This document shows positions 49,574 to 63,163 of a stretch of 64,000 bases of DNA, piece by piece. Within the stretch, counting starts at the first letter, position 1, and the number at the start of each line of letters is the position of its first letter. A model generated the notes under the pieces. The model made no database searches and was not told the DNA's origin. It saw only the letters and a program-made list of their open reading frames with translations. Both the position numbers and the translations under genes were made by a program. Source of the DNA: Candidatus Zixiibacteriota bacterium (lineage in GTDB: Bacteria > Zixibacteria > MSB-5A5 > GN15 > FEB-12); contig JAOUBJ010000005.1 in assembly GCA_029860345.1 (NCBI GenBank), positions 124,001 to 188,000 of the forward strand, read 5' to 3'.

Positions 49574-51262
49574 TCAGGCCGAGACAGGCGTATCGACGCA
49601 GATATCGGCCAAAGGGAAGGTAGTGGTGATTGATGTGCCCTGAGACAGGGCTGACTCTATAGACAACTTGCCGCCGTGATTCTCTATGATTCGCTTGCAA
49701 ACAAGCAGACCAAAGCCGTGGCCGTCCTTTTTGGTAGTGAACTTTTCAGCAAAAGCCTTCTCCAACAGGGCCGGCTCCATACCGGCCCCTGAGTCACTGA
49801 TGGTCATGGCAAACATTCCATGGGCGCGGTCGATGGTGATACCCACGTTAATCTCGCGTCGGGCGCATTCGATAGTTGCATCGGCGGCGTTGTTGAACAG
49901 GTTGTACAGCAACTGCTGGATATGGGTGGCATCGGCTTCAAACAGAATCGGATCTTTCAGAGCTGCAATGTTGAGAGACACGCCGGCAAACCGCTTTTGT
50001 GGTTTGAGATAGTCGACCACCTCCATCAGAAGCTGATCGAACCGAATGGCTTCCTTCTTCGAAGCGATCGGCGTCAGGTCCATCAAGTTCCCGGTGAAGG
50101 TCTTGATCTTATCGATGTTATCGAGAATCGCATGGAGATACCTGGGGAGTTCGTCGTAGTTCTGCTTTTTGAGATGGAAATCCAGGAGCGACAGGTTGCC
50201 GGTGACGACACCCAGGAAATTGTTCAGCTCGTGGCCGATCTCGGCCGACATCTCACCACGCGTGGCCATTTTCTCAAGCTGAATGGTCTCATCCTGTAGC
50301 TCTTTGAGACGTGCGTAGGCATCCTTGGCTTCTTCCAATAGAGTAATATTCTCAAGCGATAAGGCCAACTGGCTGGCGGTGATGGAGAGAAAGGTCAAAT
50401 CGGTCTCTTTCAATGTATCCGATTCCTGATTTAGACCTATCATAAGCAGCCCATAGTGAGACCCGGCGCGACTCAGCGGCACCGTCACCACACGATGGGT
50501 CGGTTCCAGACAGGGCGGAAACAAGTATTCAACCAGGGAGGGGTCGGGACAGGCCAGGTACAAGGGATGTTGATGAATGTCGTTGACATAAAACGGAGCT
50601 TCCAACAGTTCCGGATCGATGGCGCTCAGGCAGGCCGTCAGGGGCTGATCGGCCAGCGTGGTTTCTTCGGTCTGGTCATCGACGATGGAGACCCTTCTGC
50701 AGTCTGCCCCGAGGCTGTCCCAGTAGAGGGCGACGCCGTGCGTCGAACGGCAGTGGACCATGGCGAATTTCAAAGAAAGAGTGGTAAGCGACTTTCGATC
50801 TCCGGCCGTATAAAGCATCTGACTCAGGTCCGAGAGACGTTCAAGCTGGACGCCGCCGTCTTTGTCGGCCGCCAATTGACGAATTTTCAGGACTGCTTTG
50901 TCGACCGCCTGTCTGATCTCCTTCAGTTCGAACGGTTTTAGAATATACTCAAAAGCACCCTGCTTGATAGCATCCTTGGCAGAGTTCAGGTCGGCATAGC
51001 CGGTGATGAAGATGACCACAACGTCGGGACGAACCTCACGCGCTTTTGCGGCCAACTCGATGCCATTCATGTGCGGCATACGAATATCGGTTATAATCAG
51101 ATCGACCGGAGTCTCTTCAACCAGTTTCAAGGCGTCAGGACCGTTGGACGCAACCTGGACCAGATGCCCTTCATCCTCCAGCATGTCGCGTACCAGGGAG
51201 AGGACGATTTCCTCGTCATCAGCCACGACAACATGGACGGGTTTTTCGTCAGTCTGGGTCAT
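49574..51262 (-). CDS. Receiver-GAF-histidine kinase hybrid (cytoplasmic)
   Basis: A 562-residue protein. Receiver domain (about 8-125) with LIITDIRMPHMNGIE (phospho-Asp) and the conserved Lys in FEYILKPFELKEIRQ. A GAF-like sensory region follows (about 145-320), then a coiled coil and a kinase: GHELNNFLGVVTGNLSLLDF (His), NLFNNAADATIE (N), DSGAGM (G1) and GHGFGLLVCK (G2). Placing the receiver before the kinase means a phosphorylated receiver could switch the kinase. Its start overlaps the stop of the single-domain receiver by 4 nt, so the two are translationally coupled. It is the last gene of the five-gene signalling operon. Confidence 0.92.
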   Translation of the reverse strand: MTQTDEKPVHVVVADDEEIVLSLVRDMLEDEGHLVQVASNGPDALKLVEETPVDLIITDIRMPHMNGIELAAKAREVRPDVVVIFITGYADLNSAKDAIKQGAFEYILKPFELKEIRQAVDKAVLKIRQLAADKDGGVQLERLSDLSQMLYTAGDRKSLTTLSLKFAMVHCRSTHGVALYWDSLGADCRRVSIVDDQTEETTLADQPLTACLSAIDPELLEAPFYVNDIHQHPLYLACPDPSLVEYLFPPCLEPTHRVVTVPLSRAGSHYGLLMIGLNQESDTLKETDLTFLSITASQLALSLENITLLEEAKDAYARLKELQDETIQLEKMATRGEMSAEIGHELNNFLGVVTGNLSLLDFHLKKQNYDELPRYLHAILDNIDKIKTFTGNLMDLTPIASKKEAIRFDQLLMEVVDYLKPQKRFAGVSLNIAALKDPILFEADATHIQQLLYNLFNNAADATIECARREINVGITIDRAHGMFAMTISDSGAGMEPALLEKAFAEKFTTKKDGHGFGLLVCKRIIENHGGKLSIESALSQGTSITTTFPLADICVDTPVSA

Positions 51263-51627
51263 AGCGAAAGTGCTTTTGAGAGAACCTCTTCAACGGTTCG
51301 AGTGACCTCTTCCAGATCGAACGGTTTGGTCAGACAACCATAGGCGCCTGCCTCCTGAGCCAGTCGTGCCAGTTCATCGGGCAGGGAGTCGGTCATTATG
51401 AAACGTGAGGATGGACGGGCCGCCGTCACCTCGGTAAACACCTGATAACCATTTTTCCGAGGCATGTGTAAGTCACACAGGATAATGTCAAAGTCGCCAT
51501 CCAGCGCCTGCTCGATACCATACTGACCGTCGACGGCTGAATCGACCTGATGACCTTGCTCACTCAAGTATTCGGTCAAAAGTTCTCTGATAACCTCTGA
51601 ATCGTCCACAATCAAAATCCGAGCCAT
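51259..51627 (-). CDS. Single-domain response regulator (CheY-like)
   Basis: A 122-residue receiver domain only. Acidic pocket in ILIVDDSE, phospho-acceptor Asp in FDIILCDLHMPRKNGYQV and Lys in YGCLTKPFDLEEV. The Ser/Thr switch region reads RFIMTDSLPDE. There is no output domain, so it must act by protein contact or pass phosphate on. It lies 8 nt after the preceding receiver gene. Confidence 0.92.
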   Translation of the reverse strand: MARILIVDDSEVIRELLTEYLSEQGHQVDSAVDGQYGIEQALDGDFDIILCDLHMPRKNGYQVFTEVTAARPSSRFIMTDSLPDELARLAQEAGAYGCLTKPFDLEEVTRTVEEVLSKALSL

Positions 51628-51635
51628 GAGTTACC

Positions 51636-52007
51636 TCACTGGGCGATACATTCAGCCACTGTGTTCATTAGGTCCGAGATCGAGAACGGCTTGGATAGAA
51701 ACGCACACGCGCCACCCTTGGCCGAATCGCTGACGGAGAACAGAGTAGAGTAACCGCTGATGACCACAACCTGATAGTTTGGGTCCTGTTCGCGAGCGAA
51801 TTTCACCACTTCTTCACCCGATACTCGGGGCATTTTCAGGTCGGTGATAATCAGATCGTATTTTGTCGACTTGATTTTTTCGATAGCTTCGTCACCGTCA
51901 CAGGCCGTTGAAACCTGATAGTCTTCGCCGAGAACCTCAAGAAGAAACTCTCGGATGATCTCCTCATCATCTACAACTAAAATGGATTTGGCGGCTGAAT
52001 CCTGCAT
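51636..52007 (-). CDS. Single-domain response regulator (CheY-like)
   Basis: A 123-residue receiver domain only. SILVVDDEEIIREFLLEVLG, Asp in YDLIITDLKMPRVSGEEV and Lys in CAFLSKPFSISDL. The ATG at 52007 follows AGGA closely; the open frame extends further upstream into the kinase gene but has no domain there. It begins 10 nt after the kinase stop and is the likely first phosphate acceptor. Confidence 0.92.
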   Translation of the reverse strand: MQDSAAKSILVVDDEEIIREFLLEVLGEDYQVSTACDGDEAIEKIKSTKYDLIITDLKMPRVSGEEVVKFAREQDPNYQVVVISGYSTLFSVSDSAKGGACAFLSKPFSISDLMNTVAECIAQ

Positions 52008-52017
52008 GGTCCTAAGT

Positions 52018-53706
52018 TCAAACCTGTACGTCAGACTGTTTTGGTACCGTCTCACTTGAATTATCGGAAGCTGAGGCCGGTTTCTGAACAGGCAGAATAA
52101 GAGTAAACTTGGTTCCCCGACTAACGACCGAGTCGACTTTAATCTCGCCGCCGTGATCCTTGATAATACCGTAGCTGACCGAGAGCCCCAGTCCTGTTCC
52201 CTTGCCGACTTCTTTGGTGGTGAAGAACGGCTCGAATATCTTCTTGATCGTCTCCGGTTCAATGCCACTGCCCTGGTCGGCGATTTGCACTTCGACCGCT
52301 CCGCCGAACTCTCCCAGGGCCGGACTGAATCGCGACTTGATGCTAATCACACCCTGAGGCTTGGAAGCATGCATGGCATTGATAATCAAATTGGTGAATA
52401 CTTGCTGCAACTGTCCGCCACTTCCCTGGATGATCGGCAGATTACTATCGAGTTCAAGACTCAACTCGATCTGGTTCATGTGTAGCTGATGCTCCACAAA
52501 GGTGACAGTATCCTCTATGGTCGCGTTGATATCGACATCTTCAAACTCGGTGGCCCGCCGTGAACGCGAGAACCTGAGAAGGTTTTGGACAATAGCCTTA
52601 CAACGCCGCGCCTGGGTCTCGATATCGGTAAGGTAGCGAATGAAGCTCATCATCTCCTTGTTGTCGGGATCGGCGGTTTTCTTCTTCTTCATCTTCTCCA
52701 GAGCGAATTGAGCATAACCCAGAATCCCGCCAAGTGGGTTGTTCAGTTCATGGGCGACTCCGGCTGCAAGTTGACCGATAGCACTCATCTTCTCTGACTG
52801 GATCAACTGAGCCTGGGCATCTTCAAGTTCCAGGGTGCGCTGGATGATTTTCTCTTCGAGAGTACGGTTGTATTCCTCAATTTCGTTTCGTGTTTGCTGC
52901 AACGACTCAATCATCTTGTTAAATGTATTGGCCAGTTGACCGAGCTCGTCACTTTGATTTACACTTACACGCTGACTCAGATCCCCTCGTGCTACCTGGT
53001 CTGTTACATCGACCAGCATCTGTACCGGTTTGGTCACAAACCGAACAATGAAGGTGATAAAGAGAATAGTGATAGCCACGACCAGCAGGGTAAGGATTAT
53101 AGCGGCCACTCTCGCTTCAGCAATAGCCTCATTGACCGCTTCGAGGCTCAAAACCAGTTTGATGTCCCCGAGGTGTTCGCGAACAAAGGTCTTGGTCAAG
53201 GAACGATCAATACCACCTGTGATGCCGAGATTTTCGCGATCCAGTTTTTCCACCCGTGACATCACCGGGTAGTTCATTTCGATGTAGACCTTGCCTGTGG
53301 CGTCTTCAACGTAGTAGTCATGGCAGTAGGCGGCATCGGGATCGTTGGGGTGGCTGATTTCTCTGAGCCGAATTGCCGAATCTACATCCCACTGTCCGAG
53401 TTGCGAGAGTATCTCACCCTCAAGGTTGTAGATTGTCGCACACCGAATATCCTCGAAAACCGAGAACTTGTCCAGCAATTCATCCAGTTCCTGCGTGTCC
53501 TCAAACAACACGCCGCTTTCGGCTTGCAGGGCGAGTATGCGAACCATTGTCTCGCCGTTCTTTTCGAGCCCCAAGCGGAAACCGTCTTCCTGTCTCTGGA
53601 TCAGATAGGCGCTCATCACAAAAATGGAGCAAACCAGGATAACCGATATCGGCGCCACGAATTTGGTGCGAAGCTTGCAGCGGCTAATCATGCTCGGGAG
53701 GTTCAT
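52018..53706 (-). CDS. Membrane sensor histidine kinase with HAMP domain
   Basis: A 562-residue kinase. First membrane helix at about 17-37, an extracytoplasmic sensor region of about 165 residues, second helix at about 203-227, then HAMP (about 228-282, VTKPVQMLVDVTDQVARGDL). A coiled coil and the kinase core follow: GVAHELNNPLGGILGYAQF (His), NLIINAMHAS (N), DQGSGIEP (G1), FEPFFTTKEVGKG (F) and GTGLGLSVSYG (G2). Its start overlaps the solute-binding-protein stop by 4 nt (ATGA), strong support for joint function: the binding protein probably presents its ligand to this sensor domain. Two receivers follow directly. Confidence 0.94.
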   Translation of the reverse strand: MNLPSMISRCKLRTKFVAPISVILVCSIFVMSAYLIQRQEDGFRLGLEKNGETMVRILALQAESGVLFEDTQELDELLDKFSVFEDIRCATIYNLEGEILSQLGQWDVDSAIRLREISHPNDPDAAYCHDYYVEDATGKVYIEMNYPVMSRVEKLDRENLGITGGIDRSLTKTFVREHLGDIKLVLSLEAVNEAIAEARVAAIILTLLVVAITILFITFIVRFVTKPVQMLVDVTDQVARGDLSQRVSVNQSDELGQLANTFNKMIESLQQTRNEIEEYNRTLEEKIIQRTLELEDAQAQLIQSEKMSAIGQLAAGVAHELNNPLGGILGYAQFALEKMKKKKTADPDNKEMMSFIRYLTDIETQARRCKAIVQNLLRFSRSRRATEFEDVDINATIEDTVTFVEHQLHMNQIELSLELDSNLPIIQGSGGQLQQVFTNLIINAMHASKPQGVISIKSRFSPALGEFGGAVEVQIADQGSGIEPETIKKIFEPFFTTKEVGKGTGLGLSVSYGIIKDHGGEIKVDSVVSRGTKFTLILPVQKPASASDNSSETVPKQSDVQV

Positions 53707-54662
53707 CGGTACACCTCCTTGGCCACTGCCACCAGATCGTCCGGGATTGTAATACCCACGTGTCCGGCGGTTTTTTCATTGTAATGGAACCAGACGAAAT
53801 CGGCCTGGGTAACAGGAATCTGGCCCGGGTTTCTTCCGGCCAATATACGCTTGACAATCTCACCGGCTTGTTGACCGATTGCCTTGTAGTCAAAATCCAG
53901 CGCGAACAACGCGCCCGACTCTACCACGTGCCGCGAAAAACCCATGAACGGGACGCCCTTGCGGAGCGTGTTCATCAGGATGTATCGGGTGGATCGCGGG
54001 TCAAACAGATTTGGGTCGGCAACGCTCCAGATACCGTCGGTGATCTTGGCCAGAGAGTCGAGCGCTTTGGGTAGCTCTTTGAAATCGTTTACAAGCATCG
54101 GCACCAAAGTGATACCGGCGTTGTCTGCCACCACCCTGGCGTGAGCGATCAGTGCGGCTGTATTGTCCGTGTACAATACACCGACATCTTTCAGTCCGGG
54201 AATTATCTTCTTGAAATACTTAAACTGGAGATCGACCGGAACGTTGAGCGAGGCGCCGGTAATACTGCCTCCGGGCTTGGCCATCGACTTGACATAGCCC
54301 GAAAGAACCGGGTACTTTACCGCCGAGAAAACCGTGGGGACATTTTCAATATTGGTTTTGGCGAACTCTGTGGCCGAACTGCCGACGGTCAGGATAACTT
54401 TGGGGGACACTTGGTCGAGCGAGTCGATGATGGTCAGGTTGCCGGCAACATTGTCGCCGACTTGAAACTCATGAAAGGTCGCACCGGGGTGTGTTCGCTT
54501 GATCACTTTGCGCGCACCCTGCAAAGTGCGCAGGGTGGACTTCAAGCTATCCCGGGTGATTATGCCTATATGAATATCCTCACCGGCCTGCGCGACAGCT
54601 GAGCCGGCCAGCAGATATAGAATCACCGCGCATACGAGCACTCTCTTGGACCACTCGTTCAT
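53703..54662 (-). CDS. Periplasmic ABC-type solute-binding protein (DUF534/TrpX-like fold) coupled to a kinase
   Basis: A 319-residue exported protein with a signal peptide (about 1-28, ending AVAQAG). The body follows the type I periplasmic-binding fold of the BMP/TrpX group: 'KVILTVGSSATEFAK', 'NVPTVFSAVKYPVLSGYV', 'GASLNVPVDLQFKYFKKIIPG', then 'GVPFMGFSRHVVESGALFAL' and 'IGQQAGEIVKRILAGRNPG'. No permease or ATPase gene lies nearby; instead its stop overlaps a membrane kinase. A sensory role, not transport, is therefore likely. The ATG at 54662 has only a weak ribosome site. Ligands of this group are often amino acids or similar small molecules; the specific one is unknown here. Confidence 0.85.
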   Translation of the reverse strand: MNEWSKRVLVCAVILYLLAGSAVAQAGEDIHIGIITRDSLKSTLRTLQGARKVIKRTHPGATFHEFQVGDNVAGNLTIIDSLDQVSPKVILTVGSSATEFAKTNIENVPTVFSAVKYPVLSGYVKSMAKPGGSITGASLNVPVDLQFKYFKKIIPGLKDVGVLYTDNTAALIAHARVVADNAGITLVPMLVNDFKELPKALDSLAKITDGIWSVADPNLFDPRSTRYILMNTLRKGVPFMGFSRHVVESGALFALDFDYKAIGQQAGEIVKRILAGRNPGQIPVTQADFVWFHYNEKTAGHVGITIPDDLVAVAKEVYR

Positions 54663-54991
54663 TGGCGTACCGGACCGTATCTTATTGACAACGTTGACAA
54701 TCCTATGCTGTTGGGCGCTCCCCCTTCTGGGTCCAGCACCACGGGTTGTATGGTCATAGCTATCGGACACAACGCGCAAAACTTGACAACCGATGCTGGG
54801 TCTGGGGGGATCGAGCAGGTCAGGGCAGCTGACCCATTGGTGATCGTCATTATAACAATCCACTTTTTGTTCTCAGGGGACCTTAAGATTTTTTTCACAG
54901 GACCGACCTTAGAATGTAAAGTGCATTCTGTCTAAGAAGCCGGAATCTGGAAAATACAATGTTCAAAATAACTCGTGCAGGAGGAGTTGCC
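54663..54991. other. Divergent regulatory region with inverted repeat
   Basis: About 330 bases between the kinase operon and the TonB-receptor operon. An inverted repeat, AGAATG/CATTCT with a 7-nt loop (54911-54929), sits about 65 nt upstream of the receptor start and could be an operator. An AT-rich patch lies at 54850-54895. Neither promoter could be placed with confidence. Confidence 0.5.
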
Positions 54992-57685
54992 TTGTACAAA
55001 CAACTTCTATCGTTGTTCTTGCTCCCACTTGCAGTCCTGTTGCTCTTCGGAGCGACGTCACTTCACGCAAGTGTGAGCGGCAAGATATCGGGAGAGGTTT
55101 TAGACTCCCAAACCGGCGAACCGATCGTGGGGGCGACGGTTCGTATCTCAGGGACTAGTCTGGTAACACGAACGGATGATGACGGTGAGTATTTCATGAT
55201 CAACATACCAGTTGGTAAATGCGATCTTTTCGTCACCTCCGTCGGTCATGAGACAATGACCAAGAAGGGAGTGCGTGTTCTGGTTGATCTGACTACACCC
55301 GTTGATTTCGAACTGGCTCAACAAGTCATCGAAATCGGTGGGGCGGTTGTCGTAGTGGCATCCAATCCGATCATCCAACTAGACCAGACGGAGTCGCGGA
55401 TCACCTTCACCGCCGATCGACTGAAAGAACTACCCAACATAGTAACAGTTCAGTCGGTACTTACCAATTATCCCGGCGTAGTGATCGGTCGTGATCAGAA
55501 TCTTCACGTCCGCGGCGGCCGGGACGGCCAGGTATCCTACTACTACGACGGATTCTCGATTCAGGATCCGTTCTACTCGACCTCCGGCATTCGGATAATG
55601 CCCACCGCCCTTGAAGAACTCTCACTGACGTCCGGCGGCTACACCGCCGAGTATGGTGAGGCGCTCTCAGGTGTGGTCAGGGCGGTGACTCGTGAGGGCG
55701 GACCGGAGTTCCACGGCGGGATAAAGCTCTACGAAGGGGCTACGCATCCGTATGACGTCACCACCGGCGACTGGGGTGATCTCACCCGGACCGGAAATCG
55801 GTCCGTTGCTTTCAACCTGTCCGGACCGCTGATGGGTTTTGATCCCAAACGTTTCAATTTCTTCACAGCCGGTGAGTATCTCACCGACGAAACATCCCTG
55901 CCGGCCAACGGGATGGACGCCTACACCTGGACAGCCAAAATCTCGGCACAGCCGACTCCACACTTGCGAGTAAAAAGTAATTTTACTTATCATGATCAGA
56001 GCGGCAGGCTGTACAACCATCGGGATGTGAACGGCATCTCCTATGATTTCAATCTTGATGGGTTACCATCGATGGAGCGGAATTCATATCTCTTGGGTCT
56101 GACCAGCAATTACAACTTCAGCGAAAGCGTAATCTGGTCGTCCACATTCAACGTCTTCAGCACCCGTACCTGGCGTGGCCCCAAGGACCTCATCCACACT
56201 TACTGGAATGAATGGCCCGGGTATTCCGAGGACGCAGAAGGCGTCTACAACGGTACGATTGACGACGACAACTACCTGGGTCTCGGTTATCGCGACTTCA
56301 ACGATCCCTATCATGCGACCGGTTTCACCACCGGAAATGACTTTGAACCCACGTTTCGTCGGCGAGAAGCTCATTACACTTCATTTAAGACCAGCCTGCT
56401 GACCCAGTTGAATAAGACCAATCAGATCAAGGGCGGTCTTGAAGTGCGTCGTTACAAGGTCGATTGGGACCTCAAACAGTTCTACAACGAGTTCCCTTAT
56501 GGTGAAAAGTATTCCAGCCGTCCGCTCTTGGCCTCGGCCTTCCTTCAGGATAAATTGGAGTACAAAGACTTTGTTATTAATGTAGGATTGCGTTTCGATT
56601 ATCGTGACGCTGATATCGAGTACAATCTGGCTGCTCGCGGCACGACCGCCGAAGAGGAGGCTCACTATGTGAAGTCCGAGTCTGAGTCGCGCCTATCGCC
56701 GCGGCTGGGCGTCTCCTTCCCGATATCCGAAAAATCCGTGATGCACTTCAACTACGGCATCTACTTTCAGGAGCCACGCTACGTCTTTATGTATACCAAT
56801 CTGCAGGGCGATGTCACCTCCGGACTGCCGTTGTTGGGTAATCCCGACCTGGAACCGGAGCAGACGATTTCCTACGAATTGGGCCTGGATCACCTGATCG
56901 GCGATGACTTGAAATTCGATGTGACCGCCTATTATAAGGACATCAAGGATCTCGTCACCACCCGCGCTTCGGTGCGCGATGCCGCCAACATTATAACATA
57001 CTTCGACAATGGCGACTATGGTTCGGTCACCGGCTTTGATGTTGAAGTGGAGAAACTGCCTCTGGGTGGGTACTTCGGCGGATCGATATCCTATGGTTAC
57101 ATGCTGGCCACCGGCAACAGTTCTTTCGCCACCGAACCTTACTATACGTTTATAACCTCAAATGCTGATTCTCTGGCACCGGTGGGCGAGTACCCGCTCG
57201 ACTTTGACCAGCGCCACACGGTCACAGCGGTTCTCAGTTATCGGGTACCGGCGGAGTGGGACGGCCATTTCTTCGGTATGCCCCTCCCGGGCGCATGGGG
57301 CATTACAACCGTTGGTCACTATGGCTCGGGACTGCCTTACACACCAACCGATCCGTTCGGCAATCGGTTCGGCGAGCGCAACGAAGGTCGTCTACCGGCC
57401 AACTACACAGTGGATATGCGCTTCAGCAAGGACTTCAATATCGGCGGCGCCAGCCAGGTTTTGAGCCTGTTTACAGAGGTCGACAATCTGTTTGACCGAC
57501 GAAACGTGATAAACGTTTACACCCGTACCGGCCAGCCGGACAACGACGGACAGCTAGCCCAGATCAGTCTGGGCACGGCTGAAGTTCAGTCGTCGCTGTC
57601 ACGGCTTGATCGGCTTTACGATCACGATCCCCAGAATTATTCCCCACCCCGCACTATTCGGTTCGGGCTGGAGTACAACTTTTAG
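54992..57685 (+). CDS. TonB-dependent outer-membrane receptor with N-terminal carboxypeptidase-regulatory-like domain
   Basis: An 897-residue receptor. The start is the TTG at 54992, with AGGAGGAG 5-6 nt upstream and a signal peptide beginning at once (MYKQLLSLFLLPLAVLLLFG); the ATG at 54959 lacks a ribosome site. After the signal peptide comes a CarboxypepD-reg-like domain (about 25-110, GKISGEVLDSQTGEPIVGAT), a plug domain with QSVLTNYPGVVIGR and LHVRGGRDGQVSYYYDGF, then a long beta-barrel ending in a terminal Phe (IRFGLEYNF). No clear TonB box was seen. It probably binds a substrate at the surface. It leads an operon with a tagged secreted protein and a PorV-like protein. Confidence 0.9.
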   Translation: MYKQLLSLFLLPLAVLLLFGATSLHASVSGKISGEVLDSQTGEPIVGATVRISGTSLVTRTDDDGEYFMINIPVGKCDLFVTSVGHETMTKKGVRVLVDLTTPVDFELAQQVIEIGGAVVVVASNPIIQLDQTESRITFTADRLKELPNIVTVQSVLTNYPGVVIGRDQNLHVRGGRDGQVSYYYDGFSIQDPFYSTSGIRIMPTALEELSLTSGGYTAEYGEALSGVVRAVTREGGPEFHGGIKLYEGATHPYDVTTGDWGDLTRTGNRSVAFNLSGPLMGFDPKRFNFFTAGEYLTDETSLPANGMDAYTWTAKISAQPTPHLRVKSNFTYHDQSGRLYNHRDVNGISYDFNLDGLPSMERNSYLLGLTSNYNFSESVIWSSTFNVFSTRTWRGPKDLIHTYWNEWPGYSEDAEGVYNGTIDDDNYLGLGYRDFNDPYHATGFTTGNDFEPTFRRREAHYTSFKTSLLTQLNKTNQIKGGLEVRRYKVDWDLKQFYNEFPYGEKYSSRPLLASAFLQDKLEYKDFVINVGLRFDYRDADIEYNLAARGTTAEEEAHYVKSESESRLSPRLGVSFPISEKSVMHFNYGIYFQEPRYVFMYTNLQGDVTSGLPLLGNPDLEPEQTISYELGLDHLIGDDLKFDVTAYYKDIKDLVTTRASVRDAANIITYFDNGDYGSVTGFDVEVEKLPLGGYFGGSISYGYMLATGNSSFATEPYYTFITSNADSLAPVGEYPLDFDQRHTVTAVLSYRVPAEWDGHFFGMPLPGAWGITTVGHYGSGLPYTPTDPFGNRFGERNEGRLPANYTVDMRFSKDFNIGGASQVLSLFTEVDNLFDRRNVINVYTRTGQPDNDGQLAQISLGTAEVQSSLSRLDRLYDHDPQNYSPPRTIRFGLEYNF

Positions 57686-57700
57686 AGCGGAGCCCAGAGC

Positions 57701-60439
57701 ATGAAAACGACACACAAAACAACCGGGGTTGGTTGGGTGACACTACTGCTTCTGCTGGTTCCGGTTACCCTGGTGATGGCCCGTCCGGCCACCCAGGGAG
57801 GCTACCAGAACCCGAGTGATCCCCGCCCACCGTCGGCCCTTTCGCCCGGCGTCCACACGCTGGATCAGATCACTCATAACAAGGGCAACATTGTAACCAC
57901 CATCGACAATTTCGGATATATCGGCGGTTACCAATACTATGGTTATCCTTCGGGCGAATGGCCGCGCAATTCCGGCCATGACTACATAGGTGAGATTCGT
58001 TATTGGATGGGTGCCGTGACTCCCGGCGGTGATACGCTGGTGGCCAACACCTACGATGATTTCGAAGCCACCCCCATGCCGGTCAACGGTGAAGACGAGT
58101 ATTTGATCTATCTGTCAACCGACACCAGCCGCTACTGGAACTATGATCCCACCGACACAGTGGGACTCGGTGGCGGCAGCCCGGCTTTCGGTTGGCGCGT
58201 CTGGGACCCCTCCGGCGACGTCTTCGATTTCAACGAAATCTGGGATCCGCTGGCGGCTACTTATGATCCGGGCGGCCCAACTTCACTTCAGGAGTCGCAC
58301 TATCGGTTCAACGATGCCGCCGAAGGAGCACCGCTATTGGGCCTGGAGCTGACTCAGACTATCATGCAGTGGAACTACTGCTACAACGAGGACTTCCTCT
58401 TCGTTGTCCTGGAGATCACCAATACTTCGGTAGTAGATTATTCGGAGTTTGCTTTCGGTCTGTATATCGATATCGACGTCGGTGGTCCCGACGGCACCGG
58501 TGAAAACGGACGCCTTAACGACATGGTTGCATACGATGTCGACGACAACCTGGCCTGGAACTATGATGTTGCCGGATATGACCCGGGTTGGAAAACCAAG
58601 ACCGGCGTCATGGGCACCAAGATTCTGGAGATGCCGGACGGCCTCGGCATGACGGCCTTTCGCTCCGACGACTGGGCGATTGTTACCGGAATCGATGATC
58701 CGGGCATGTTTGAATTGATCAACAGTACGCAGTTCGATGAGTCACTACCGCCAACCGATCAATTCTATATTCAGTGTACGCGAGGTATCGACCTCACCGC
58801 CGGCAAAACTGTGCGTTGCGTTTTCGCGCTGGTGGCCGGTAAAGACGAAGCTGACTTCCGTAACAATGCCTCCCTGGCTCAGAATCTGTATGATAACAAC
58901 TTTATCGGCCCTCAGCCACCGGCCACACCTACCTTGACGGCACGCGCCAGCGAGGGCCAGGTCTATCTGAACTGGGACGACACGGCAGAAGTCAGCATCG
59001 ACCCGCTGAGCAGCGAAGTCGACTTTGTCGGATACAAACTGTACCGCAGTAACAACCAGGGCAGGTCCTGGGGCGCTGTGGATGACGAAAACGATAATAG
59101 CTGCCTCGATATCGACTATGACAGGATCGCCGAGTTTAGTGTCTCCTACCCAGGTGATCCAATCAACCATTCGTACATCGACACCGGTCTCTACAACGGC
59201 GTGGAATACTGGTATTGTCTGGTTGCCTATGATCGTGGAGATTTGGAAACAGGCGTGGATGTGCTGCAATCGGGCTTCGGCATCGCCGGTGAGGTGTCCA
59301 ACGTTGTGGCGGCAACTCCAACAGCCGCCCCGGCCGGATTCTATGATGCCGCTTCATCCGTTAAACACACCTACGACGGAGCGGGATCACCTTCCCAGGG
59401 CAATGTTGTCCCGATCGTCTTTGACACCGACGACATTACCGGTTCTGAGTACCAGGTGGTGTTTGAAGACACGCCGGATAACGAAGCCACCGTCTGGCAT
59501 CTGATAAACGTCACCAGCGGCGACACGCTGCTGTTCGATCAGGAAACGATGTCCGGCGACGAAGGTCTCTACGAAGTGGTCGAAGGGCTAAGAGTGGTTG
59601 TCACCGATGTCGATCGGGAACCGGCCAGCTTTGGCCAAACCGGTTTTTCAGGCGCTGACACCAGCTTCAATGTTTTTGAAATCCTGGGACCGCCGGTCGC
59701 CTGGTTGTATGACGACCCCAGCTACGTGTGGGGCAATGAGCCCTACCGTAACACTTACGAGCTGCGCTACACTGGAGATTCCACGCGCGCCACCTGGCTT
59801 TTGGACTGGTACTACGGCCAGGACATTCCGTACTGGGTACCCTTCGAGGTTTGGAACACGACCTCAGGCGAGCGCGTATCGATTTCAGTGCTGGATTGGG
59901 GTGGCACCGGCGTGTGGGACGCCAGCCAGTTAATGACTATTGTCGACTGGCCTTACAATGCCGCTTCCTCGGTAACCGACAGCGCCTTCCCTAATCATTA
60001 CAGTTGGCTGTTCGACCTTGACGTGGATACCTACGATCCGGCCACCGGTGATGTGGTGACCATGGAAGGGGCGCCCATGAACGGTCCGGCCGACGTCTTC
60101 ACGTTCAAGCCGGATGGAATCAGCGCCTCGGCCGCCAGTAACGAACTCAAAAACATCCGTGTCGTGCCCAACCCGTACTTTGGACGTTTCTCAGGCTATG
60201 TCGAGACGGCCAGCGAGGCTTCGGAGATCACTTTTAACCGAATCCCGGTGGGTTGCACGATCAGAATATACACGCTGGCCGGCGATTTGGTGGCGACACT
60301 GCATCACACCGATGGTGACGGTTCGGAAAGCTGGAACCTGCAGTCGGATAACGGCCGCCAGGTAGCCAGCGGCATGTACGTATACCACGTTGAATCAGAG
60401 TATGGCGAGCACCTCGGTCGCTTTGCCATAATCAAATAG
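57701..60439 (+). CDS. Secreted protein with fibronectin-type region and C-terminal sorting-like (T9SS/FlgD-like) domain
   Basis: A 912-residue exported protein with GGAG about 10 nt before its ATG and a signal peptide (about 1-27, VPVTLVMARPA). The long N-terminal beta-rich region (about 30-400) has no domain I can name. A fibronectin-type III segment follows near 405-520 (ASEGQVYLNWDDTAE, then VGYKLYRSNNQG). The final 90 residues match the C-terminal domain used for type IX secretion or a FlgD-like fold: 'NIRVVPNPYFG', 'GCTIRIYTLAGDLVATL' and 'ASGMYVYHVES ... GRFAIIK'. It lies 15 nt after the receptor gene and 13 nt before the PorV-like gene. It may be a surface protein assembled by the same operon. 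Confidence 0.85.
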   Translation: MKTTHKTTGVGWVTLLLLLVPVTLVMARPATQGGYQNPSDPRPPSALSPGVHTLDQITHNKGNIVTTIDNFGYIGGYQYYGYPSGEWPRNSGHDYIGEIRYWMGAVTPGGDTLVANTYDDFEATPMPVNGEDEYLIYLSTDTSRYWNYDPTDTVGLGGGSPAFGWRVWDPSGDVFDFNEIWDPLAATYDPGGPTSLQESHYRFNDAAEGAPLLGLELTQTIMQWNYCYNEDFLFVVLEITNTSVVDYSEFAFGLYIDIDVGGPDGTGENGRLNDMVAYDVDDNLAWNYDVAGYDPGWKTKTGVMGTKILEMPDGLGMTAFRSDDWAIVTGIDDPGMFELINSTQFDESLPPTDQFYIQCTRGIDLTAGKTVRCVFALVAGKDEADFRNNASLAQNLYDNNFIGPQPPATPTLTARASEGQVYLNWDDTAEVSIDPLSSEVDFVGYKLYRSNNQGRSWGAVDDENDNSCLDIDYDRIAEFSVSYPGDPINHSYIDTGLYNGVEYWYCLVAYDRGDLETGVDVLQSGFGIAGEVSNVVAATPTAAPAGFYDAASSVKHTYDGAGSPSQGNVVPIVFDTDDITGSEYQVVFEDTPDNEATVWHLINVTSGDTLLFDQETMSGDEGLYEVVEGLRVVVTDVDREPASFGQTGFSGADTSFNVFEILGPPVAWLYDDPSYVWGNEPYRNTYELRYTGDSTRATWLLDWYYGQDIPYWVPFEVWNTTSGERVSISVLDWGGTGVWDASQLMTIVDWPYNAASSVTDSAFPNHYSWLFDLDVDTYDPATGDVVTMEGAPMNGPADVFTFKPDGISASAASNELKNIRVVPNPYFGRFSGYVETASEASEITFNRIPVGCTIRIYTLAGDLVATLHHTDGDGSESWNLQSDNGRQVASGMYVYHVESEYGEHLGRFAIIK

Positions 60440-60452
60440 AAGGAGGTGCGAA

Positions 60453-61451
60453 GTGAGAAAGATTATCTGGCTGATGTTGCTGCTTATGGTGGCCACGACC
60501 GCCTCCGCAGGACATTCCAAAATGGGTAGCGCCGGCGCTCAGTTTCTGAAAATCGGCGTTGGCTCCAGGTACCAGGGTACCGGTGAAGCTTCGGTGGCCA
60601 TGGCCAACGATGTATACGCTATGTTCTGGAACCCCGCCGGTCTGGTCGAAGTTGAGAATTCCGCAATCGGCTTCACCAATGTCAACTGGCTTCTGGATAT
60701 CGACCTCAACTATGTCGGCTACGCCAAGCACTTCGAAGACATCGGCGTCTTTGGTGTCTCGGCGGCCGTGTTGTCGATGGAGGATCAGGAGATCACCACC
60801 CTCGATGATCAGGACGGCACCGGGGATTTCTATTCAGCTGTCTCTTACGCCGTCGGCGTGAGCTATGCTCGCCAACTTACCGATCGGTTTGCATTCGGCG
60901 GATCGTTCAAGTATGTCGGTGAACGAATCCACAAGGAAAACGCATCTACATTCGCCTTCGACTTCGGTACCCTGCTATACACCGGATTCAAATCGCTACG
61001 GATGGGGATGAGTATTACCAACATGGGTCCGGACCTTCAGTTTTCGGGACCCGACCTTGATGTAGCCTATGACGAGCTGGATGGAGACGGCGCCAACACG
61101 CCAATCGGCGCCTCGGTCAAAACCACTCCGTATGATCTGCCGATGATGTTCCGGTTTGGTCTTGCCTATGACTTTGCGGTTGCCTCTAAGTCAGATGTAA
61201 CGATCTCGGCTGAGATGAAGCATCCCAATGACAGTCACCAGCAGGGATCGATCGGCGCCGAATGGCAGTACGATGAAATGTTCTTCCTCAGGAGCGGCTA
61301 TAAGTTCCAGTCCGATGAGGAAGGGTTGTCCTTTGGTGGAGGCCTTATAACCAACATCTCCGGCGAAACCGATCTCTTGATCGACTACGCCTGGCAGGAC
61401 TTTGGCCGACTACAATCTACCCACCGGTTCAGCGTTGGGTTCAATTTTTAG
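60453..61451 (+). CDS. PorV/PorQ-like outer-membrane beta-barrel protein
   Basis: A 332-residue barrel of the PorV/PorQ family (FadL-related). The start is a GTG with AGGAGGTG about 5 nt upstream; signal peptide 1-19 (ending TTASAG). Typical start of the mature protein: GAQFLKIGVGSRYQGTGEAS, then DVYAMFWNPAGLVEV and IGFTNVNWLLDI. The end is a strand with terminal Phe (RFSVGFNF). PorV helps type IX secretion by shuttling sorted substrates; here the upstream gene encodes a protein with a matching C-terminal domain. An intrinsic terminator follows within 25 nt. Confidence 0.88.
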   Translation: MRKIIWLMLLLMVATTASAGHSKMGSAGAQFLKIGVGSRYQGTGEASVAMANDVYAMFWNPAGLVEVENSAIGFTNVNWLLDIDLNYVGYAKHFEDIGVFGVSAAVLSMEDQEITTLDDQDGTGDFYSAVSYAVGVSYARQLTDRFAFGGSFKYVGERIHKENASTFAFDFGTLLYTGFKSLRMGMSITNMGPDLQFSGPDLDVAYDELDGDGANTPIGASVKTTPYDLPMMFRFGLAYDFAVASKSDVTISAEMKHPNDSHQQGSIGAEWQYDEMFFLRSGYKFQSDEEGLSFGGGLITNISGETDLLIDYAWQDFGRLQSTHRFSVGFNF

Positions 61452-61472
61452 AGGCTCTTTGCGATTGAGAGA

Positions 61473-61499
61473 AAGCCCGCCTTGTGGCGGGCTTTTTTG
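61473..61499 (+). terminator. Intrinsic terminator of the receptor/PorV operon
   Basis: AAGCCCGCC (61473-61481) and GGCGGGCTT (61486-61494) form a 9-bp stem with a TTGT loop, followed by TTTTT. Confidence 0.9.
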
Positions 61500-61576
61500 T
61501 AACAACTCTGGACTTGACGTGTAGAATGGATGATATTGTCGGACGATATGCAAGATACTCAAGGAGCAGCGACCGA

Positions 61577-63163
61577 ATGAAAACAGTTTTGTCTCGACTT
61601 TCTATTGCAGGTATGTTGATAGTTCTTTTTGTGTCAGCCGGTACCGCCGGGGCGGCTGATCGACCCGTGGATATCCTGGGCGAATACTTCGATCTACTGA
61701 TCTCCGGTAACATTGAATCGGCCCACTACCTCTGGAGCGGGCCTTCGTTGGAACGAGCTTCCCGGTTCGGTATCGAATACACCGATATACCTCTAAAGAA
61801 CGACTGCAACTCACCCATAATCCGTGATCTGAAACTGTATCGGAATCATCTTCAGCCGGTGGCCAAGCGCATTATCAGCCTGGGCGATCCGGCCTACCAG
61901 CTTCTTCTGTACTCAAGTATCGTAGAAGGAGAGTTGGTCGAACACAATTATTTCCTGAATTTCGATGGACAGTATTGGTGGTTGTGCTACCCTCAGGATT
62001 ACTACTGCCGCGACTGGCCGATTCGGGAAAGTCGCTACCTGAGAGTGCACGTGGATCCTACCGCCGAACGATACCTCAACCCGGTATGCTTAGAGGCGAC
62101 CGATTCATTCATTGAGCAGACTGCCCGGTTGCTGAAACTATCCAAAGATCAGCTTAAGCTGCTGACCGACGAAAAGATTGACTACTTCTACTGCGGCAGT
62201 GATTCAACCATCGAGCAGATCACCGGACATCTCGTTAAGGGCGTTTTCGATCTGCCGTCCAACGATCTGATTTCATCGTTCTTTCCACACTACCATGAGT
62301 TGATCCACTTCCTGGTAAACCTGAAACTTCAGAAACTGCCGCTTTACACTCAGCCACTTATGAGAGAGGGGATTGCCGTAACACTCGGTGGTCGCTGGGG
62401 TAAGACACCGACTTCTCTCATTGATCTGGGTGGGTTCTTGTATCGAGAGAAAATAGTCGACCTGGACAGCCTGCTGGCCATGTCGCTGTTCGAGCCCCAT
62501 TCCGGTGCCGACATCGCCTACCCGGTGGCCGGCCTGTTCTGTGCTTACCTGCTCGAGCGTATGGATCAAGAGCGATTCTTCGAAGTATACCTGAAACTCT
62601 CGGGCGATTTCAAAACTGTCTATGGCCAAACCACTCAGGTAGTCAAACAGATTCTGATCGAAGCAACCGAAGACGAAAACTGGGAAGAGTTTCTTGAGGG
62701 ATTCGACAAGTTCATCGACGAGGTGATGGATGACCGACTGATGATTCGACCCGGCAGGCTGGCCAAGGGGAAAGAACTGATAAAGGGGGACAGCTACATC
62801 GTTCGCGAAAACAAACATTGGCTCGGTTTCGAATTCAGCTTCGAGCCGGAGCAGGAGATATCCGGCAATCTGATGTTCGGTTTCGACAAGCGTCTGGCCG
62901 CGGTCTCTTCGGTCTTGTTTGGAGAACAGTACGGCGTTACCACCAATGTCGACGGATATCGGTTCGGCGTTCGTTTTGACCGTAACGAAGTCGGCCTGTA
63001 TGACTACGCCACCAGTCATTTGATGGCCAAGTATATCTGGGGAATCACGCCGTCGGGCGATTATTTCGATGAAGACAACAACCGCATAACGCTGATGCTC
63101 CACAAAGACCTTCTGAAGGATCACCTGCCCGAGAAGAACGACGTCAAGTACCTGGCCAAATAG
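61577..63163 (+). CDS. Secreted peptidase-MA-like (HExxH) protein, function uncertain
   Basis: A 528-residue exported protein. Start: ATG at 61577 with AAGGAG 10 nt upstream, then a signal peptide (about 1-27). Residues around 235-240 read HYHELIHFLVN, an HExxH zinc motif, followed about 25 residues later by MREGIAVTLGG, the second glutamate region of gluzincins of the peptidase-MA-like type. The N-terminal 200 residues look like a mixed alpha/beta domain without a known motif. The C-terminal 120 residues (about 400-525) are beta-rich and may form a separate carbohydrate- or wall-binding domain. Catalysis is plausible but not proven. It probably shares a transcript with rmuC 17 nt downstream. 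Confidence 0.72.
   Translation: MKTVLSRLSIAGMLIVLFVSAGTAGAADRPVDILGEYFDLLISGNIESAHYLWSGPSLERASRFGIEYTDIPLKNDCNSPIIRDLKLYRNHLQPVAKRIISLGDPAYQLLLYSSIVEGELVEHNYFLNFDGQYWWLCYPQDYYCRDWPIRESRYLRVHVDPTAERYLNPVCLEATDSFIEQTARLLKLSKDQLKLLTDEKIDYFYCGSDSTIEQITGHLVKGVFDLPSNDLISSFFPHYHELIHFLVNLKLQKLPLYTQPLMREGIAVTLGGRWGKTPTSLIDLGGFLYREKIVDLDSLLAMSLFEPHSGADIAYPVAGLFCAYLLERMDQERFFEVYLKLSGDFKTVYGQTTQVVKQILIEATEDENWEEFLEGFDKFIDEVMDDRLMIRPGRLAKGKELIKGDSYIVRENKHWLGFEFSFEPEQEISGNLMFGFDKRLAAVSSVLFGEQYGVTTNVDGYRFGVRFDRNEVGLYDYATSHLMAKYIWGITPSGDYFDEDNNRITLMLHKDLLKDHLPEKNDVKYLAK

Follow-up and report, generated by a model that had tools for sequence, protein, structure and literature searches.

A phylum-wide candidate sensing module of Zixibacteriota joins a binding-protein-coupled kinase to outer-membrane receptor genes and sigma-28-type promoters

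What does a solute-binding protein do when its gene is joined to that of a membrane histidine kinase and no permease gene lies beside it? This question is raised by an operon in a 64,000-nucleotide stretch of a Candidatus Zixiibacteriota genome (the window), and we address it by following the operon, its neighbours and its promoters across the phylum. The operon consists of five genes:

SBP, 53703..54662, minus strand: periplasmic binding protein with signal peptide (PF04392, E 5.8e-40; 319 aa)
HK1, 52018..53706, minus strand: membrane histidine kinase (TM, PAS-like periplasmic domain at about 38-188, TM, HAMP, HisKA, HATPase)
REC1, 51636..52007, minus strand: single-domain receiver of 123 aa, starting 10 nt past HK1
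REC2, 51259..51627, minus strand: single-domain receiver of 122 aa, overlapping RGK by 4 nt
RGK, 49574..51262, minus strand: soluble kinase (receiver-GAF-HisKA-HATPase; 562 aa)

The order binding protein, HAMP kinase, receiver, receiver, receiver-GAF-kinase is that given in the preliminary description of this DNA, and both 4-nt stop/start overlaps reported there are present (SBP/HK1, 53703-53706; REC2/RGK, 51259-51262). A domain search of the operon genes likewise found no permease, ATPase or DNA-binding domain, as had been claimed. While the genes, order and overlaps stand, the set of five was drawn too narrowly: it left out the promoters and the adjacent operon on the plus strand (54959-63163), which are part of one unit with the five-gene operon.

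SBP was detected by profile search in 100 of 132 Zixibacteriota genomes, normally as one copy each (the homologue in one of the 100, G113, is distant and its kinase neighbours differ), and by coordinates an orthologue of the HK1 sensor region adjoins it essentially always. A single contig-level scan of 84,980 species genomes with SBP recovered close relatives only, at 42 loci; two of these bear the label Calditrichota, and the rest are Zixiibacteriota by label or lack a classification. The gene order SBP-HK-REC-(REC)-(RGK) is kept throughout these loci and 40 further stretches, 38 of which were chosen as SBP neighbourhoods in distant families, and a permease next to SBP was seen in none of these mapped loci (42 loci and 40 stretches). 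An inserted ABC permease gene or an unconserved order had been named beforehand as what would speak against a binding protein locked to the kinase rather than part of an importer; the proposed comparison of SBP neighbourhoods across related genomes instead revealed an SBP/kinase order conserved over the phylum. Moreover, among 78 SBP/HK1 junctions in relatives (from two overlapping collections, so that some genomes were possibly counted twice) the -4 nt overlap is by far the commonest class. Because the order recurs across the phylum and this overlap prevails among the junctions, the operon is far beyond a chance arrangement. Ligands of PF04392 proteins are diverse; the SBP alignment has a strictly conserved long motif near the second lobe, MGFSR.VVESGALFALDFDYKAIG, which suits a putative ligand cleft.

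Several individual records deserve mention. The two Calditrichota-labelled contigs (L013, L026) carry the block at Zixibacteriota-like identity and are probably mislabelled bins. The SBP gene is broken by a TGA at L043 7911-8950 (G058) and the kinase gene has an in-frame TAA at L086 10534-12228 (G073), both of which could reflect assembly error or decay. The distant PF04392 protein of G113 (family f15; L082 3971-10503) adjoins a dCache-HAMP-PAS kinase and a REC-PAS-kinase-REC hybrid and is another SBP/kinase set within Zixibacteriota. Plasmid matches to SBP fall below 60% identity and have unrelated neighbours; on Rhizobium ruizarguesonis plasmid pRlX2 (L117 4809-7605) a related SBP gene overlaps a dCache-HAMP adenylate/guanylate cyclase gene, again without a permease, and is a further pairing of a binding protein with a signal transducer. 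Finally, one genome has a PF04392-like domain fused to a TolC-like outer-membrane efflux protein (OEP) in two places (L002 1225-3561, G000:C3; L003 874-3285, G000:C5:19900), with a receiver gene immediately upstream of the fusion gene in L002.

In the aligned members the phospho-accepting histidines (H319 of HK1, H344 of RGK) and the receiver aspartates (D56 of REC1, D52 of REC2, D59 of RGK) are invariant and the ATP-site motifs of HK1 and RGK are invariant or nearly so, which makes phosphotransfer by HK1, RGK and the receivers plausible. The parts differ in how consistently they are kept. Family f19 (L076, L078-L080, L112) has one receiver and no RGK, and L023-L025 have neither REC2 nor RGK, with SBP, kinase, one receiver and outer-membrane genes kept in both groups; families f9, f10 and f13 mostly keep REC2 and RGK and are without REC1. 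Judged by gene content, the core is TBDR, NEXT, PorV (these three are described below), SBP, HK1 and one receiver, and REC2 and RGK, missing in some lineages, are therefore accessories. A relay in which the first kinase controls the second had been suggested as a possibility; since RGK is absent from family f19 and from L023-L025 while the rest remains, such control is an elaboration and not the essence, and RGK was rejected as an essential output. In family f9 the receptor side has an extra single-domain receiver gene after the PorV gene (L091 17300-17734; L092 276-).

In nearly every locus the other flank of SBP is occupied by outer-membrane genes, which in the window are:

TBDR, 54959..57685, plus strand: TonB-dependent receptor (CarboxypepD_reg + Plug + barrel; 908 aa), divergent from SBP
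NEXT, 57701..60439, plus strand: large secreted surface protein of 912 aa whose C-terminal sorting domain is T9SS-like and degenerate
C1, 60453..61451, plus strand: PorV/PorQ-family outer-membrane protein of 332 aa
C2, 61484..63163, plus strand: uncharacterised protein with no family match, kept in families f1, f3 and f4 only

TBDR, NEXT and PorV genes lie side by side in nearly all mapped loci. The C-terminus of NEXT scores 15.1 bits with TIGR04183 against a cut-off of 23, and its predicted fold is of low confidence (pLDDT 65), with FN3 and beta-sandwich matches only, at low TM-score. The set resembles Bacteroidota SusC-type receptors with T9SS/PorV in its CarboxypepD_reg-Plug-barrel architecture, its PorV-family protein and a SprA homologue encoded elsewhere in the same genome. 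It differs from them in that a domain and family search found no SusD-like lipoprotein partner of TBDR at the locus, the partner being instead the FN3/T9SS-tailed NEXT. Bare divergence of the TBDR and SBP operons could be passive neighbourhood. However, three layouts occur, namely the divergent one, a one-direction TBDR-NEXT-PorV-SBP-HK-REC in f19 and a one-direction SBP-HK-REC2-RGK-TBDR-NEXT in f13, and that the two groups of genes stay linked across these changed layouts argues for a functional link. Elsewhere the same genome has further TBDR-PorV sets, paralogous to this one and without a kinase (a NEXT-like protein belongs to one of them), which points to the TBDR set as a general module to which the sensor was added, or with which it was kept, here.

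The region between the two operons contains the last of the ten parts that we list:

Sigma-28/FliA-type promoter (predicted), 54760..54786, minus strand: TCAAGTTT-N11-TCCGATAG, 98 nt upstream of the SBP start, 13/16 consensus matches

A k-mer search found CCGATA in 59 of 60 divergent intergenic regions, and the full element around it, TCAAGTTT-N11-NCCGATAN, is of the type of the E. coli sigma-28 consensus, TAAAGTTT-n11-GCCGATAA (PMC2859248). We scored 73 distinct upstream regions for at least 12 of 16 matches to the E. coli consensus at spacings of 8-14. At spacing 11 this level was reached by 54/73 SBP and 41/73 TBDR upstreams, compared with 1 to 15 (SBP) and 1 to 14 (TBDR) at spacings 8-10 and 12-14, and by 0 to 11 upstreams of the remaining block genes. 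The TBDR upstream of the window itself reaches 10/16 only, and in family f19 the motif was not found at the block. The exact pattern has only two occurrences in the window's own 4.76 Mb genome. In 18 related genomes it has 18, of which 11 fall in the SBP/TBDR intergenic region and 6 lie ahead of a single conserved FHA-domain gene. The second exact site in the window's own genome (L138 1501-1856) lies immediately ahead of a yajC-like gene, after which come genes for peptide deformylase and formyltransferase, and may reflect chance or regulation. The FHA-associated promoter (L168-L173, sites at 1501) is near-perfect and conserved in at least six Zixibacteriota genomes, ahead of genes for an FHA-FHA protein (231 aa) and then a metallophosphoesterase. 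A sigma-54 promoter in the divergent region was also considered and rejected, there being no excess over shuffles.

The same motif precedes 23 of 30 cheW orthologues at 12/16 or better (2.3% in shuffles), and 123 of the 132 Zixibacteriota genomes encode a FliA-family sigma factor above the cut-off; these two results support assigning the motif to the motility sigma factor. That the SBP and TBDR operons are made under sigma-28 is thus well supported as a prediction. As in the sigma-28/FliA regulon (class 3: aer, trg and che genes), the promoter is of the TAAAGTTT-N11-GCCGATAA type and is common to cheW in the same genomes. Unlike in that regulon, it serves an outer-membrane receptor set and an SBP-kinase pair, not chemoreceptor or filament genes, and it persists in lineages without flagellin. 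The motif was not found in flagellin upstream regions, and flagellin promoters were accordingly rejected as its source.

The link to motility has limits. Family f2 has a flagellin gene close to the PorV gene of the block. Families f13 and f14 keep module and motif with no flagellin match, and f15-f18 have flagellin and lack the module, so that the module is not strictly tied to flagella and strict co-occurrence was rejected. In f13 and f14 (G103-G109) a FliA-type factor is kept together with the motif and without a convincing flagellin gene, which suggests another role of sigma-28 there.

Taken together, our data suggest that the ten parts form a phylum-wide outer-membrane-to-kinase sensing system under the sigma-28 regulon. 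We put the probability of this reading at roughly 0.55. The gene set, its coupling, its conservation, the absence of a permease, the active-site residues and the promoter motif were observed; the flow of ligand, contact between SBP and kinase, phosphotransfer, FliA's use of the promoter and an effect on motility are inferred. In such a system TBDR, the T9SS-like surface protein and the PorV-family protein would import or handle an extracellular ligand, SBP would take it up in the periplasm, and liganded SBP would control the PAS-like periplasmic domain of HK1. The precedent of adjacent genes in characterised SBP/kinase couples (10/11; PMC11113362), together with translational coupling, makes it most likely, by analogy, that SBP docks on this domain, whether in the liganded or the unliganded form. 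HK1 would then phosphorylate at least one CheY-like receiver, and REC2 and the soluble RGK would broaden the pathway in most lineages. Since the receivers have no output domain and no DNA-binding domain is present, the output would pass through protein contact. Both operons would be transcribed with the sigma-28 (FliA) regulon, and the system would thus be made when late motility genes are on. Motility behaviour would be the most likely target, and the module may act on flagella. A more specific version is doubtful: a chemosensory input without methyl-accepting proteins, in which the TBDR complex feeds SBP and the kinase, the free receivers target the motor or the chemotaxis apparatus, and the flagellar sigma factor switches the module on.

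Among the alternatives, it is possible, and we entertain it tentatively, that the SBP-coupled kinase controls envelope or nutrient uptake only, autoregulating the TBDR operon through an unlinked DNA-binding regulator, with sigma-28 setting the timing and no effect on motility. The constant neighbours are indeed TBDR and surface-protein genes, the module survives in f13 and f14 without flagellin, and FliA-type factors can be rewired for non-flagellar uses (PMC8325347). However, no mapped locus has a DNA-binding regulator, the receivers are single-domain and CheY-like, the promoter class is common to cheW, and family f2 has flagellin close to the block.

The periplasmic domain of HK1 raises another alternative. 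It is predicted (pLDDT 79) to fold as a PAS-like domain flanked by two long TM helices, with the periplasmic or extracellular domains of WalK and CitA and the output domain of LapD as nearest structures, and the only family match there is a weak one to CHASE8 (E 1e-4; 22.6 bits vs the Pfam cut-off of 27). This match, the likeness to LapD and the constantly linked outer-membrane partner recall YfiBNR of P. aeruginosa, where a regulator in the periplasm stands between a component of the outer membrane and a membrane protein whose periplasmic domain is CHASE8-like (logic as outlined in PMC4887326 and PMC4655355); SBP would then repress the kinase and bind no solute, and under envelope stress the outer-membrane complex would sequester it. 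We consider this unlikely, as the periplasmic protein belongs to PF04392 and not to YfiR (DUF4154), the CHASE8 score lies under the cut-off, and the conserved second-lobe motif of SBP suits a putative ligand cleft. Membership in YfiBNR itself was rejected: YfiR, the OmpA-like YfiB and GGDEF are absent from the locus, which has a kinase and receivers instead. Very improbable, finally, is a binding protein serving an ABC importer encoded elsewhere, with the kinase link secondary: the family carries an annotation as ABC transporter substrate-binding protein and TrpX (NF041285) is the closest NCBIfam model, but SBP reaches 111 bits (curated cut-off 390), is in most cases coupled translationally to the kinase, has no permease beside it in the mapped loci and shares its adjacency to a kinase gene with 10/11 characterised couples (PMC11113362), and its assignment as TrpX or as an importer component was rejected.

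Returning to the sensing system, RedCDEF of Myxococcus has two kinases and receivers in one locus and no DNA-binding output; unlike there, a binding protein and outer-membrane genes are present here. RedCDEF is mentioned in PMC3018481, in which loci with more than two two-component genes made up 2.4% of the loci surveyed. Precedents for binding-protein-coupled kinases are LuxP-LuxQ, TorT-TorS and XylFII-LytS (PMC6321045), and as in these the SBP gene adjoins that of a kinase with a periplasmic domain and has no permease of its own. By adjacency and a predicted folded periplasmic domain the HK1/SBP pair falls among such kinases, and contact between SBP and HK1 is predicted. Here, unlike in those systems, the binding protein is of the PF04392 family, the linkage to TBDR, T9SS-like and PorV genes is constant, the promoters are of the sigma-28 type, and free receivers and a REC-GAF-kinase replace a hybrid kinase with a DNA-binding regulator. 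The literature that we searched on CHASE8 or PF04392 with kinases and on TonB/T9SS in Zixibacteria held no description of the block, which is not proof of absence. Binding-protein-coupled kinases are already known; what this literature lacks is one of the PF04392 type that goes with a TonB/T9SS-like/PorV set and sigma-28 promoters.

Such kinases are known singly, and here the pair is a single-copy, phylum-wide trait tied to an outer-membrane receptor set and sigma-28-type promoters. TBDR, the T9SS-like surface protein and the PorV-family protein, otherwise annotated by family only, thereby gain hypotheses as to their function. The block provides a testable claim on how an uncultured phylum may sense its surroundings while motile.
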